DNA of 36,139 nucleotides from Flavobacteriaceae bacterium (GCA_947452415.1 CANGCT010000020.1:1-36139), one strand, 5' to 3'. Positions 19,610 to 28,669 are shown, numbered from the stretch's first letter. Numbers and translations are program-made. The notes: generated by a model from the sequence alone, not told the origin.

Positions 19610-20047
19610 TTATTTTTCTTCAGAAGATCCTTTAATTTTTTCTGCCTTTTTTGCTTCTAGTTTTTCTTTTCTTTCTTGCATTTTTTGGCTCCATTTAGCG
19701 TATTGTTCTGCAGTAAGAATTCTTTTCATGTTGGTATCCATAGCAACCTCATCTTCTTGAAATTTAGCTTTACGAGCTTGCATTTCCTCTTTTGAAGGTT
19801 TTGTGCCTGCAGCTTTTTTTGCTTCCATTTCTGCTCTATTTGCTTCTCTTTTTTCCACTTCTTTGGCTACTAAAGCTTTAATTTCTTGCGCTTGTTTTTC
19901 GTTAAGAGTTAAATCTTTAGTCATTCTCTTAACTTGAAATTCTACTCTTTGTTCAGGAGTCATTTGTGCTTTCTGTTCCTTAACTTGTTCTTGTGCAAAA
20001 GTTGTCATTCCAACAACTAATAATGCAGCTACTAATAATTTTCTCAT
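19610..20047 (-). CDS. Small periplasmic Spy/LTXXQ-like or DUF4890-like charged helical protein
   Basis: Signal peptide; MTPEQRVEFQVKRMTKDLTLNEKQAQEIKALVAKE, ILTAEQYAKW. Confidence 0.65.
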   Translation of the reverse strand: MRKLLVAALLVVGMTTFAQEQVKEQKAQMTPEQRVEFQVKRMTKDLTLNEKQAQEIKALVAKEVEKREANRAEMEAKKAAGTKPSKEEMQARKAKFQEDEVAMDTNMKRILTAEQYAKWSQKMQERKEKLEAKKAEKIKGSSEEK

Positions 20048-20227: not shown

Positions 20228-20235
20228 TACCTTTG
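20228..20235 (+). promoter_or_regulatory. Candidate -7 element TACCTTTG upstream of the copper-type gene cluster
   Basis: Matches TAnnTTTG, about 57 bp before the 20292 ATG. Confidence 0.4.
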
Positions 20236-20291: not shown

Positions 20292-20666
20292 ATGAACAAA
20301 TTACTACTACTAGTTGCTCTAGCTTTATTTCTAAAACCGGTATTTCCGATAGTAGACTATGTGGTTAATTATCATTATATCAGCACAGTCCTTTGCGAAA
20401 ATAAAAACAAGCCCGAATTAAAATGTTGCGGTAAATGTCATTTGAAAAAAGAATTAGCAAGTGCATCTGAAGGTGAAAAACCGACTTCTTCCAACAAAAA
20501 AGATACTTCGAAACAAGAAGTAGAAGTGTTATTTTTTCAAAACATAAAATCCCTAGTGATGGTACAAATTTATTTTCAGGACACCATTTCTATTGGAGAT
20601 AATTATTCTAATCTTTACTTTCATTCTATAGGTTGTTCGGTATTTCATCCTCCAACAATTTCTTAA
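20292..20666 (+). CDS. Small Cys-rich secreted/membrane protein (C-x9-CCGKC motif)
   Basis: Hydrophobic N-terminus; VLCENKNKPELKCCGKCHLKKEL. Confidence 0.65.
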   Translation: MNKLLLLVALALFLKPVFPIVDYVVNYHYISTVLCENKNKPELKCCGKCHLKKELASASEGEKPTSSNKKDTSKQEVEVLFFQNIKSLVMVQIYFQDTISIGDNYSNLYFHSIGCSVFHPPTIS

Positions 20667-20765
20667 TTTTTATCGGTTTAAAAAAGGTGCAAATTTCATT
20701 GGTAGAATTACTTATGAGTATTTTCATTGCACCACTATTTCAATTAAAATTTAAGAAAAACACAA

Positions 20766-21569
20766 ATGAAAAATATATTTAAAAAGTCAATCGCAGTTGT
20801 TGCTATTGCAATAACTCTTGTATCATGTAGTAAGAGTGAGGATTCTATTACTGGAACAGGAGCACTAAAAGTGCAATTTGAAAACGGTTTCGCAGATAAT
20901 GCTTTAGTATTTAGTAGCGCAACGGTTCCTACTTCCCAAAATGAAGTGTTAAAAATCAGTAACATCAAATACATTGTTAGTAATATTGTTTTAACCAAAG
21001 AAGATGGAACTACTTTTACTTACCCAAAATCACAAAGTTATTTTATTGTTGACGAGGCTACACCAGCAAGTTTATTATTAAATTTAAGCAATATTCCTGC
21101 TGCTAATTACAAAACTATAAGCTTTGGAATTGGTGTAGATCAGGCACAATACGCTCTAGGTCAAAGTGGAATTGCTGATTTTTGGATTGCAGCTCAAACC
21201 GCAGGTATGACTTGGAGTTGGGCTTCTGGATTTAAATTTTTGGCTTTTGAAGGTACTTTTACTTCTCCTACAATTACCACTGATACTTCCTTTATGATTC
21301 ACACTGGTAAAACTGGAACGGATTATAATTATACCGAAGTTACATTACCATTGCCAACCAATGCTTTGGTTAGAACAAATATTACACCACAAATTCACTT
21401 GAGCACTGATTTGTCTCAAATTATTGACGGGACTAATAAAATTAACTTAACTGCTCATAACTCTATGGGAATGGGCGCCATGATTATGGGAGGATCCGAT
21501 TTACCTCTTATTTCGAATAATCTTACTAATATGTTTTCGGTAGAACACGTTCACAACGATCCAAACTAA
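20766..21569 (+). CDS. MbnP-like lipoprotein (methanobactin-operon partner protein family)
   Basis: Lipoprotein signal LVSCSKSED; KVQFENGF, ISNIKYIVSNIVL, GIGVDQAQYALG, MTWSWASGFKFLAFEGTF; followed by a di-heme gene. Confidence 0.8.
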   Translation: MKNIFKKSIAVVAIAITLVSCSKSEDSITGTGALKVQFENGFADNALVFSSATVPTSQNEVLKISNIKYIVSNIVLTKEDGTTFTYPKSQSYFIVDEATPASLLLNLSNIPAANYKTISFGIGVDQAQYALGQSGIADFWIAAQTAGMTWSWASGFKFLAFEGTFTSPTITTDTSFMIHTGKTGTDYNYTEVTLPLPTNALVRTNITPQIHLSTDLSQIIDGTNKINLTAHNSMGMGAMIMGGSDLPLISNNLTNMFSVEHVHNDPN

Positions 21570-21578
21570 TACTAAAGC

Positions 21579-21616
21579 AAGCTGTTTGGATTATTAAATT
21601 CAAACAGCTTCTTTTT
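21579..21616 (+). terminator. Intrinsic terminator/attenuator between MbnP-like and di-heme genes
   Basis: AAGCTGTTTG-GATTATTAAATT-CAAACAGCTT then CTTTTT. Confidence 0.75.
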
Positions 21617-21630
21617 AAATTTTATTCAAA

Positions 21631-22662
21631 ATGAAAATTAAATATTTAGTGTATTTTATTTTGCCTTTGATGTGGAGTTGCTCCAAAGACGAAGTTTATG
21701 TGGATGTGCCTTTAAAATTTATAGTACCCTCCAATTTTCCGCCGTTAGCGTATAATATTGCTCAAAATCCGCCAACACAAAAAGGATTTGAATTGGGTAA
21801 AAAAATATTTTATGATGGTAGACTATCTTCTGATGGAGACATTTCGTGTAGCTTTTGTCATATTCAGCAAAATGCTTTCACCCATCACGGACACACGGTA
21901 AGTCACGGAGTAAATAATGCTTCTGGAACTCGTAATTCTCCTTCTATTCAAAACATGGCATTTCAAACCCAATTTATGTGGGATGGCGCTGCCGATAATT
22001 TGGATTTTCAACCCGTTATCCCTTTGCTAAGTGCCATTGAAATGAATGGAAATTTCGGAAATATTATAACAATGATGAAAGCAGATCCAAATTATGTACT
22101 GCTTTTTGGTCAAGCTTTTCCAAATAAGGAAATCAATACCGAAAACCTATTTAAGGCGCTGTCTCAATTTATGGTGATGAATGTTTCTGCAAATTCTAGA
22201 TTTGACAAATACCGAAGAAACGAATCTGGTGGAACATTAACAGCAGACGAATTTACAGGTTACTCTCTTTTTAATGCTAAATGTGCCACTTGCCATGCAA
22301 CGGATATGTTTACCGATAATTCTTTTAGAAATAATGGAATAGCTGTAAACCCACTTGTAAATGATATTGGAAGGTATTTTTTAACCCAATTGCCTCAAGA
22401 TTATTACAAGTTTAAGGTACCTAGTTTACGAAATGTAGAACTTACAGCTCCATACATGCACGATGGTCGTTTTGGAACACTTGAAGCAGTTTTAAATCAT
22501 TATTCTAATGCAGTAGTGAATTCGGCAACTTTAGATCCAATATTAAATCAAAATGGCAATTTGGGAATTCCGTTATCTGCAACTGAGAAAATGCAAATAA
22601 TTGCTTTTCTAAAAACATTAACAGATTACCAATACATAACCGATACTAGATTTTCAGAGTAA
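21631..22662 (+). CDS. Di-heme cytochrome c peroxidase / MauG / MbnH-like protein
   Basis: Lipoprotein signal (MWSCSKDE); two CxxCH motifs (CSFCH, CATCH); ELGKKIFYDGRLSSDGDISCSFCH; RNVELTAPYMHDGRFGTLEAVLNHY. Confidence 0.9.
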   Translation: MKIKYLVYFILPLMWSCSKDEVYVDVPLKFIVPSNFPPLAYNIAQNPPTQKGFELGKKIFYDGRLSSDGDISCSFCHIQQNAFTHHGHTVSHGVNNASGTRNSPSIQNMAFQTQFMWDGAADNLDFQPVIPLLSAIEMNGNFGNIITMMKADPNYVLLFGQAFPNKEINTENLFKALSQFMVMNVSANSRFDKYRRNESGGTLTADEFTGYSLFNAKCATCHATDMFTDNSFRNNGIAVNPLVNDIGRYFLTQLPQDYYKFKVPSLRNVELTAPYMHDGRFGTLEAVLNHYSNAVVNSATLDPILNQNGNLGIPLSATEKMQIIAFLKTLTDYQYITDTRFSE

Positions 22663-22706
22663 ATTAATTATTTGACAATTAAAAATTGATTAAAAAAAAC
22701 CAGATC

Positions 22707-23669
22707 ATGAAAAAAATAACACTTATTTTAATTTTATGTTTTCAATTTGCAAACGCGTATGTCAAAGATACTATGCAGTTTCCAAATCCATTCCATAAGT
22801 ATTTCTTCTATGGAAATAGTAAAGACGATTGCGATGCATGTGGATGCTCTGCAAATGGTGGAAGCATGGGCTTTAGTTCGATGTTAAACAATAACTTTAT
22901 TGGACTTCGATATGTGAATCAAAGTTATACAACCAAAGAGGGTATTTTTAACAATTCTCCTTGGATTGATGAAAATTTCAATACCATTCAAATTTGGTCT
23001 AGAATCCCTATCACTAAAAAGATTACACTTTCTGCATTAGTACCTTATCACAACAATAATAGAGAACTTGTTACGGGAAAAGAAGGAATTTCGGGAATTG
23101 GGGATTTAACTGTTATGGAAATGTACACCTTAATTCAACCCAAAATGGACAGCACTACCAATTATTCGCATAAATTTCAAATGGGAGCTGGTGTAAAAGC
23201 ACCTACCGGAAAATACAATGTTGCCAATAATGGAACTTTAAACCCTAGTTTCCAATTAGGAACAGGTAGTTGGGACTATCTTTTAGTTTCGGAATATGTT
23301 GTAAAAAGAAAACAACTTGGTTTGAATACCGCATTGAGTTATACCTTTAAAACCGAAAATAAAAAACAATATCAATTTGGAAACCAACTCAATTACGGCA
23401 GTACTGTATTTTATCTTTTGGATTTCAATAAAATAAAACTCGTACCTCAATTAGGGCTTGCTGGTGAAGTATATGCTTCTAACAAACAGGTAAAACAAGA
23501 CGTTATTGGAACTAAAGGCGACATATTGTTTAGTAAATTTGGTTTAGAAGTTGGTAAAGACAAATTTTCATTGGGCATAAATGCAATGTTACCAATTAAT
23601 CAGAATCTTATTGGTGGTAATGTAAAAGCGAATTATAGATTTGGAATTAATTTGAATTATAGTTTATAA
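22707..23669 (+). CDS. Outer-membrane transporter-like beta-barrel protein with N-terminal CDACGCS motif
   Basis: Signal peptide; DDCDACGCSANGGSMGFSSMLNNNFIGLRYVNQSY; beta-barrel pattern. Start moved from TTG 22686 to ATG 22707. Confidence 0.7.
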   Translation: MKKITLILILCFQFANAYVKDTMQFPNPFHKYFFYGNSKDDCDACGCSANGGSMGFSSMLNNNFIGLRYVNQSYTTKEGIFNNSPWIDENFNTIQIWSRIPITKKITLSALVPYHNNNRELVTGKEGISGIGDLTVMEMYTLIQPKMDSTTNYSHKFQMGAGVKAPTGKYNVANNGTLNPSFQLGTGSWDYLLVSEYVVKRKQLGLNTALSYTFKTENKKQYQFGNQLNYGSTVFYLLDFNKIKLVPQLGLAGEVYASNKQVKQDVIGTKGDILFSKFGLEVGKDKFSLGINAMLPINQNLIGGNVKANYRFGINLNYSL

Positions 23670-26007: not shown

Positions 26008-28575
26008 CTATTCCATTGCTTCCACTTTAGCTTTTACATCTTTTAAAGATCCTTCAAAAACTTGTGTAGTTGCTTTTCCTTTTTCAGTAGTAATTACAGT
26101 AGCCTTAGCTTTTCCATTATTATTAGTAATAGTTACATTCACATTTTTATCTCCTTTTTCTGCACAACAAGATTTAGATTTTCCTTCTTCACATTCTTTT
26201 GGAGCAACAAATTTTCCGTTGGCATCATAATGTGACAAACACATTTCTTTTTGCTCTGGAGAACATTTAAGACTGTCGCACATTGCTGCACATTCGTCTT
26301 TAGTCATTGTAGCACATTTGCTCATGTCACATTTGCTCATGTCTTCTGAACATTCTGAAGACATTTTAATAATACATTTCATTTCTTTTCCTTCTGGAGC
26401 AGTACCGTTTCCTAATATTGGAGCGATTACTAAACCTATCAAACAAGTTAATTTGATTAAGATGTTCATAGATGGACCTGAAGTATCTTTAAATGGATCT
26501 CCTACAGTATCTCCAGTTACAGCAGCTTTGTGAGCATCGGAACCTTTGAAAGTCATTTCTCCATTAATTTCAACACCTGCTTCAAATGATTTTTTAGCAT
26601 TATCCCAAGCACCTCCAGCATTATTTTGGAACACAGCCCAAAGAACACCTGACACTGTAACTCCTGCCATATATCCGCCTAACATTTCAGCGATTAACAT
26701 ATTATTATCTCCGTAAACTAATTTACCTAATAGTACAATTGCAATTGGGAAACCAATTGTCATCACTCCTGGCAACATCATTTCGCGTAAAGCAGCTTTA
26801 GTAGAAATATCAACACATTTTGCGTATTCTGGTTTTCCAGTTCCTTCCATAATTCCTGGAATTTCTTTAAACTGACGACGTACTTCATATACCATATCCA
26901 TTGCCGCTTTACCTACAGAGTTCATTGCTAATGCAGAGAAAACTACAGGGATCATTCCTCCAACAAATAACATTGCTAATACTGGCGCTTTAAAGATATT
27001 GATACCATCAATTCCTGTAAAAGTTACATAAGCAGCAAATAATGCTAATGAAGTTAATGCAGCAGAAGCGATTGCAAAACCTTTTCCTGTTGCAGCTGTT
27101 GTGTTACCAACTGAATCCAAAATATCCGTACGAGTACGAACTTCTTTAGGTAATTCACTCATTTCAGCAATTCCACCAGCGTTATCTGAAATTGGTCCGA
27201 AAGCGTCAATTGCTAATTGCATTGCAGTTGTAGCCATCATTGCAGAAGCAGCCAAAGCAACCCCATAGAATCCAGCAAAAGCATACGATGCCCAAATAGC
27301 ACCTGCAAATAACAAAACCGTTGGGAAAGTAGAAATCATACCAGTAGCTAAACCAGCGATTACGTTAGTTCCTGCACCTGTGGAGGATTTTTGTACAATT
27401 GCCAAAACTGGTTTTGTACCTAAACCTGTATAATATTCTGTAACTGATGAAATTGTTGCTCCAACTACCAATCCTACAATTGTAGCATAGAAAACTCTCA
27501 TTGAAGAAATATCTTTCAATCCTTCACCAAAGAAACTCATTTTCATTGTTTCTGGTAACATCAATTTTACTAAAACAAAACAAGCAATAGCTGTTAATGC
27601 AATAGAAATCCAGTTACCTATATTTAATGCTTTTTGTACTTGAGCTTCTTTAGCATTGTCATCTGAAATTTTCACAACCATTGTTCCTATAATAGAAAAC
27701 AAGATTCCGAAACCTGCAATTGCCATTGGTAATAAAATTGGTCCAATTCCGCCGAAAGCATCTTGAATCATTCCGCCCATATCTTTAATCACATAGTTTC
27801 CAAGAACCATAGCCGCAAGAACGGTAGCAACATAAGAACCAAATAAATCGGCACCCATTCCTGCAACATCTCCAACGTTATCTCCAACGTTATCTGCAAT
27901 AGTAGCAGGATTACGTGGATCATCTTCTGGAATTCCAGCTTCTACTTTACCAACTAAATCCGCACCTACATCGGCAGCTTTAGTATAAATACCACCACCA
28001 ACACGAGCAAACAATGCAATAGATTCTGCTCCAAGAGAAAATCCAGCAAGAGTTTCTAACACTTTAGTCATGTCTTCTGTAGAAGTCCAAACGCCACCCA
28101 TAAAGAAATGGAAAAAGAAAATAAAGAAGCCTGTAAGACCTAAAACTGCTAAACCAGCAACTCCAAGACCCATTACGGTTCCACCACCAAAAGAAACTTT
28201 TAATGCTTGTGGCAAACTAGTACGAGCGGCTTGCGTAGTACGTACGTTAGTTTTGGTAGCAATTTTCATTCCCATATTTCCAGCTAAAGCTGAAAAGAAA
28301 GCTCCAAAAATAAATGCTATTACAATTAATATGTGTGTTGTAGGAACCACAAAAGAAATTCCTGCTAAAACAATACTTGCTAAAACTACGAATATTGCCA
28401 ATAAGCGGTATTCTGCTTTAAGAAAAGCCAAAGCACCTTCGTAGATATAATCTGAAATTTCTTTCATTTTGCCGTCTCCGGCATCTTGTTTTAATACCCA
28501 AGATCTTTTGATTGCCATAAAAGCTAATCCAATTATTGCCATAACTATTGGCACATAAATCATCAATGATTCCAT
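26008..28575 (-). CDS. hppA: Membrane-bound H+/Na+-translocating pyrophosphatase with Cys-rich C-terminal extension
   Basis: ADVGADLVGKVEAGIPEDDPRNPATIADNVGDNVGDVAGMGADLFGSYVAT signature; DAFGPISDNAGGIAEMS. Start moved to MESLMIYVPIVM. Confidence 0.95.
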   Translation of the reverse strand: MESLMIYVPIVMAIIGLAFMAIKRSWVLKQDAGDGKMKEISDYIYEGALAFLKAEYRLLAIFVVLASIVLAGISFVVPTTHILIVIAFIFGAFFSALAGNMGMKIATKTNVRTTQAARTSLPQALKVSFGGGTVMGLGVAGLAVLGLTGFFIFFFHFFMGGVWTSTEDMTKVLETLAGFSLGAESIALFARVGGGIYTKAADVGADLVGKVEAGIPEDDPRNPATIADNVGDNVGDVAGMGADLFGSYVATVLAAMVLGNYVIKDMGGMIQDAFGGIGPILLPMAIAGFGILFSIIGTMVVKISDDNAKEAQVQKALNIGNWISIALTAIACFVLVKLMLPETMKMSFFGEGLKDISSMRVFYATIVGLVVGATISSVTEYYTGLGTKPVLAIVQKSSTGAGTNVIAGLATGMISTFPTVLLFAGAIWASYAFAGFYGVALAASAMMATTAMQLAIDAFGPISDNAGGIAEMSELPKEVRTRTDILDSVGNTTAATGKGFAIASAALTSLALFAAYVTFTGIDGINIFKAPVLAMLFVGGMIPVVFSALAMNSVGKAAMDMVYEVRRQFKEIPGIMEGTGKPEYAKCVDISTKAALREMMLPGVMTIGFPIAIVLLGKLVYGDNNMLIAEMLGGYMAGVTVSGVLWAVFQNNAGGAWDNAKKSFEAGVEINGEMTFKGSDAHKAAVTGDTVGDPFKDTSGPSMNILIKLTCLIGLVIAPILGNGTAPEGKEMKCIIKMSSECSEDMSKCDMSKCATMTKDECAAMCDSLKCSPEQKEMCLSHYDANGKFVAPKECEEGKSKSCCAEKGDKNVNVTITNNNGKAKATVITTEKGKATTQVFEGSLKDVKAKVEAME
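26314..26343 (-). repeat. Perfect 15-bp tandem duplication encoding DMSKC-DMSKC-type repeats in the hppA extension
   Basis: acatttgctcatgtc x2. Confidence 0.9.
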
Positions 28576-28637
28576 ATAATATTTATTAATTATTAAATAA
28601 ATTGTCTGCAAATATAACAAAACATTAATAAATAAAA

Positions 28638-28669
28638 AAAGCAATATTCCTTTCAAAATATTGCTTTCT
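28638..28669 (-). terminator. Terminator hairpin downstream of ppa
   Basis: aaagcaatat-tcctttcaaa-atattgcttt. Confidence 0.7.

Follow-up and report, generated by a model that had tools for sequence, protein, structure and literature searches.

A four-gene MbnP/MbnH operon of Flavobacterium as a probable copper-handling module of the Bacteroidota cell envelope

What does an MbnP/MbnH pair do outside the methanotrophs? Here, we analyse four consecutive open reading frames (ORFs) at positions 20292-23669 (+) of a 36,139-nucleotide stretch of a Flavobacterium genome (Flavobacteriaceae bacterium, GCA_947452415.1 CANGCT010000020.1:1-36139; the whole stretch is called the window), which encode, in this order, a small cysteine-motif protein (CysS), an MbnP-family lipoprotein, an MbnH-like di-heme enzyme and a predicted outer-membrane protein (OMP) (features in Table 1). 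An earlier annotation made from the DNA alone, the sequence-only reading, had placed all four ORFs correctly and had set the pair outside a methanobactin context. The absence of methanobactin biosynthesis genes was borne out, in that the MbnB family (PF05114) had no match in the window's draft genome (92% complete); the setting itself is not new, as MbnP/MbnH pairs likewise far from methanobactin genes (GenProp0940) were described in 2013 (PMC3621798). Our analysis favours, as the probable answer, a cell-envelope copper-handling module of Bacteroidota built on this pair. A link between Trp150 of MbnP and the presence of MbnH is strongly supported by sequence comparison, and suggests that the tryptophan chemistry of methane-oxidising bacteria probably also operates in this Bacteroidota operon.

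The lipoprotein matches PF20243 (MbnP) at 143.2 bits against a curated cut-off of 27, and Foldseek with its AlphaFold model (pLDDT 88) returned six chains of 7l6g (MbnP) as the sole matches at E<0.001, with modest TM scores of 0.42-0.52. The NCBIfam model TIGR04052 (a four-Cys, WxW equivalog) reached 35.3 bits, below its cut-off of 140; the four-Cys motif is absent, Cys21 of the lipobox being the sole cysteine. The Trp-containing segment that the sequence-only reading had pointed out is MTWSWASGFKFLAFEG, at residues 148-163. The adjoining gene product, proposed there as a MauG-like di-heme protein, has the features of the MbnH family: two CxxCH hemes, a tyrosine at the axial-Met column and MbnP next to it. 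Its best NCBIfam family is TIGR04039 (1.8e-64, 218 bits), again below the cut-off (362.85); in NCBIfam, each member of the pair meets the expected model, at a sub-threshold score. The closest PDB sequence match is 6e1c (1.5e-44), which we take to be MbnH, and Tyr291, conserved in 39 of 41, stands at what is presumably the axial ligand position (Tyr in MauG/MbnH, Met in bacterial peroxidases). Compared with the pair of Methylosinus trichosporium OB3b (7l6g, 6e1c; TIGR04052/TIGR04039), the window shares the adjacent families, the WxW plus His motif and the Tyr at the axial-Met position, and differs in lacking an MbnB-family gene and the four-Cys motif, in scoring below both cut-offs, and in having an extra His triad, flanking CysS and a CDxCGC barrel.

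Natural losses of mbnH connect the enzyme to its presumed substrate. In M. trichosporium MbnP, Manesis et al. in 2021 reportedly traced kynurenine to the first Trp of WxW. Seven OMP-linked operons have no mbnH (L073, L074, L076, L077, L108, L146, L214), and in five of them W150, the equivalent position here, is replaced (Ser, Met, Ser, Gly, Leu), with W152 kept in all seven; His179, which is invariant in 97/97 primary OMP-linked MbnPs of mbnH-carrying operons, is replaced in four of the five operons that lost W150 (Tyr, Tyr, Tyr, Gln). W150 is kept in 123/123 MbnPs with MbnH nearby (Fisher p 7e-8 for W150 against MbnH presence, kinship ignored). Among 27 positions conserved at 98% or more in 97 orthologues with mbnH, the mbnH-less proteins have lost only W150, H179 and G181 close to it, the one other change being the conservative I70V, and where the whole genome holds no bona fide MbnH (L108, L146, L214) W150 is lost in 3/3. 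W150 and H179 thus track MbnH. In these counts, L116/G305 and G279, where MbnH is frameshifted, did not enter as losses. The MbnH-like matches of 400-600 aa in G155, G156 and G370, which score 162-233 bits against alignment A4, were classed as other di-heme peroxidases. Distant MbnPs were aligned with MAFFT; when they were aligned by hidden Markov model (HMM) alone, the WxW of the SUF-linked MbnPs described below fell in the wrong columns, and on realignment the apparent W150 losses in loci with mbnH were gone. At the site of the missing gene in one mbnH-less operon, between MbnP and OMP, lies a YHS-domain lipoprotein (L073:2929-3210).

Several points weigh against this reading. W150 is kept in two mbnH-less operons, both in genomes with another MbnH (in G152, an orphan without an MbnP partner), and two genomes that hold another pair (G151, G154) have lost it nonetheless. 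On the OMP tree, with six mbnH losses and five W150 changes, strongly supported branches leave three independent pairs only, with none in the opposite direction, so the phylogenetic test is thin. Further points of this kind touch other parts of the mechanism: position 148 is Leu in 12 of 97 primary operon MbnPs, which casts doubt on M148 as a ligand; the OMP model is of low confidence at CDxCGC and does not fix the side of the membrane on which this segment lies; the window's MbnP has CSKSEDS after the lipobox, a weaker surface-signal match than in most relatives; and the OMP-linked MbnPs could be one clade, with their His triad partly a matter of shared descent.

This triad (His211, His261, His263) is found in 104/104 primary OMP-linked MbnPs of the family and in 16/16 phylum-wide, mbnH-less operons included. 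The full triad occurs in no OMP-unlinked MbnP, nor in the divergent second MbnP copies within some operons. H211/H261/H263 therefore track OMP as W150 and H179 track MbnH, and their invariance across classes argues that they are functional; they may form a second metal site or an OMP contact.

The four genes also travel together, a point that the sequence-only reading had proposed to check. MbnP is carried by 72 of 151 genomes of the window's family; MbnH is near it in all 41 loci examined, and the order CysS-MbnP-MbnH-OMP is found in 21 of these (window included). Its recurrence within the family spans about 20 genera besides the window's own. When named genomes were searched with the OMP alignment, 80 loci came up, the majority in Flavobacterium; 53 have the exact order, and others have small additions. 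Across 249 Flavobacterium genomes, MbnH lies within 3.5 kb at 84/93 OMP loci, the other nine being two contig breaks, two frameshifted MbnHs and five loci without MbnH. Other orders and classes of the phylum hold the unit, sometimes as CysS-OMP-MbnP-MbnH. Because the order recurs across genera, named loci and classes, the neighbourhood is not due to chance. As far as the literature was checked, the four-gene unit, the joint loss of mbnH and Trp150, and the OMP-linked His triad are new.

The two flanking proteins are of the kinds first proposed, and neither matched any family in Pfam or NCBIfam; by these searches, both are undescribed families. OMP, for which ATG 22707 is a better start than TTG 22686, is modelled by AlphaFold as a barrel (pLDDT 81.6), with FapF and the COG4313 channel 4rl8 as best Foldseek matches. 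It shares the predicted 12-strand barrel with these COG4313/Phenol_MetA_deg channels (TM 0.62/0.73 to 4rl8), at 16% identity, and none of the 21 OMP members matched PF13557 (Phenol_MetA_deg). What marks the OMP family is the N-terminal CDxCGC, matched in 111/113 sequences and lying before the first barrel strand (in several distant OMPs, immediately after an apparent signal peptide); C42, D43, C45 and C47 are invariant among the 21 members. The small protein, noted earlier for its C..CCGKC motif, follows the pattern C35-N37-(P41)-C45-x-G47-K48-C49, with C35, C45, C46 and C49 in the window (ELKCCGKCHL), and C35, N37, C45, G47, C49, P120 and P121 are invariant in 26 members. Elsewhere, CysS is followed either by TonB receptors, in some cases accompanied by PepSY_TM or YtkA-like genes, or by a Phenol_MetA-like barrel whose N terminus carries motifs rich in Met and His (GDHMHxKGE, MxMxMHM). 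CysS thus seems to accompany metal transporters of the outer membrane in general. In seven loci (L152, L153, L154, L155, L162, L163, L167), CysS and such a barrel (RPDGHAPI.VMGDH.H.KGE.MFSYRYM) form a two-gene unit without MbnP/MbnH, which looks copper-related.

How might these parts work together? MbnH would oxidise Trp150 of MbnP, most likely to kynurenine, and the derived residue with His179 would make a Cu(I) site. MbnP, probably on the cell surface, would capture copper; His211/His261/His263 would couple it to OMP, as a hand-over metal site or a docking contact; OMP would act as a small channel whose CDxCGC segment passes Cu(I) inward; and the copper would probably be received or chaperoned by CysS, a putatively periplasm-facing three-Cys protein. 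In most MbnPs of the operon, the lipobox is followed by acidic stretches (CSSDDD and similar), and surface export signals are SDDFE in F. johnsoniae and SDDDD in B. fragilis (PMC5080379), from which we infer a surface location by analogy. Known copper proteins offer a second analogy: MopE and SACCP lie on the surface of M. capsulatus, and MopE/CorA are surface Cu(I) proteins with kynurenine, repressed by copper, for which a part in uptake has been proposed (PMC3912023). MopE/SACCP (M. capsulatus Bath) and CorA/CorB (M. album BG8) share with the window a copper protein with Trp-derived kynurenine beside a di-heme peroxidase-like protein, predicted in our case, and a surface location. They are set apart by description, not structure: the CorA ligands are two His and the kynurenine, and the window has WSWASG, with no W-x-H and a conserved His 29 residues on. 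The most likely function is that MbnP, once matured by MbnH, captures copper at the surface and hands it over to the channel and CysS. A bolder version, possible although we hold it with some doubt, makes MbnP a two-site shuttle, in which the kynurenine site comes with MbnH only and the three-His site with the CDxCGC channel only; this would be an undescribed outer-membrane copper import of Bacteroidota, with kynurenine as an optional upgrade.

A role in copper handling is suggested by a sibling locus in the same genome. This second pair, on contig C107, stands in the series sigma factor (ECF-like), LTXXQ/Metal_resist protein (L071:1118-1777), MbnP, multicopper oxidase, thioredoxin-like protein, MbnH and YHYH protein. 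Such company also suits copper detoxification or export, in which MbnP/MbnH would sequester or oxidise surplus copper at the outer membrane, to be released through OMP, as does an LTXXQ/Metal_resist-like small protein encoded divergently from the operon (window 19610-20047, -); moreover, the OMP barrel has no TonB plug, and energised import is not evident. The copper repression of MopE/CorA and their proposed use in uptake (PMC3912023) speak the other way, as do the TonB-dependent receptors, importers, that often stand beside CysS outside the operon. For these two reasons we favour uptake, and export, to which the multicopper oxidase of the sibling locus still lends some weight, seems unlikely.

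An ordinary cytochrome c peroxidase in a stress system, with MbnP a mere lipoprotein partner and its Trp unmodified, would fit the many peroxidase matches of the MbnH-like protein, which also falls short of the curated thresholds for TIGR04039 and MauG. A plain peroxidase leaves unexplained why W150 and H179, and hardly any other conserved residue, disappear where mbnH is lost, and with 6e1c as the best PDB match and Tyr291 standing where peroxidase has its axial Met, we consider this explanation improbable. Copper supply to one cuproenzyme such as nitrous oxide reductase is most improbable, and NosZ, present in 66 of 249 Flavobacterium genomes, is disfavoured as the client enzyme by its negative association with OMP (13/92 OMP-positive against 53/157 OMP-negative genomes, p 6e-4, kinship ignored).

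Under OTHER ARRANGEMENTS come the MbnP/MbnH pairs that lack OMP. Some are inserted between SUF genes, some are accompanied by a YHYH protein, and others follow CysS, a small protein and a TonB receptor. Many Flavobacteriaceae (L069; L056, L058, L062-L070) have a separate MbnP/MbnH pair of the SUF (iron-sulphur) setting, preceded by a protein with thrombospondin type 3 repeats. Such SUF-linked MbnPs often have no Met at the position two residues ahead of W150, and W152 is absent from some.

Upstream of CysS, a TAnnTTTG element, the Bacteroidota -7 consensus, is present in 79 of 103 homologous loci, compared with 20.8 in mononucleotide shuffles, and a search of this region for a conserved operator gave AT-rich words and the -7 element only. 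In five relatives (L073, L074, L077, L078, L081), TAnnTTTG ends just a few bases short of the GTG/ATG start, so close that leaderless transcripts are suggested there, though not in the window. The RNA elements found in the window are two Flavo-1 RNAs (RF01705; 5309-5379 and 13969-14061, +), both away from the operon. A proton-pumping pyrophosphatase (H_PPase, PF03030; window 26008-28656, -) has a C-terminal extension of about 140 residues beyond the family profile, with an unusual Cys-rich part, CSEDMSKCDMSKCATMTKDECAAMCDSLKCSPEQKEMC, that is possibly metal-binding.

Table 1. Features of the operon, in window coordinates.
Feature	Coordinates	Strand	Basis
TAnnTTTG -7 element match TACCTTTG	20228..20235	+	sequence, upstream of operon
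CysS, 124 aa, N-terminal hydrophobic segment, C-terminal PP	20292..20666	+	motif, family alignment
MbnP-family lipoprotein, 267 aa, lipobox Cys21 (LVSC21)	20766..21569	+	PF20243 1.1e-41
WxW motif M148-T-W150-S-W152; W150 predicted kynurenine precursor	21207..21221	+	W150 conservation pattern
His179, predicted ligand of MbnH-dependent site	21300..21302	+	aligns with His of 7l6g
His211, first residue of OMP-linked His triad	21396..21398	+	conservation
H261-V-H263, C-terminal HxH of OMP-linked His triad	21546..21554	+	conservation
MbnH-like di-heme enzyme, 343 aa, lipobox Cys17	21631..22662	+	CCP_MauG 5.4e-51
First heme-binding motif CSFCH, residues 73-77	21847..21861	+	sequence
Second heme-binding motif CATCH, residues 218-222	22282..22296	+	sequence
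Tyr291	22501..22503	+	aligned with Tyr of 6e1c and Met of peroxidase 4aal
OMP, predicted 12-stranded outer-membrane barrel, N-terminal CDACGC	22707..23669	+	AlphaFold, Foldseek
CDACGC motif (C42, C45, C47; residues 42-47), predicted Cu(I)/thiol site	22830..22847	+	conservation

Here, outside the methanotrophs, the MbnP/MbnH pair is found in a conserved unit of Flavobacterium, which is tractable and often culturable, together with two partner families that have no Pfam or NCBIfam entry. The natural loss of mbnH along with the substrate Trp provides ready pairs with and without the enzyme for the kynurenine question. The locus thereby bears on the use of kynurenine copper sites in a very common environmental phylum.
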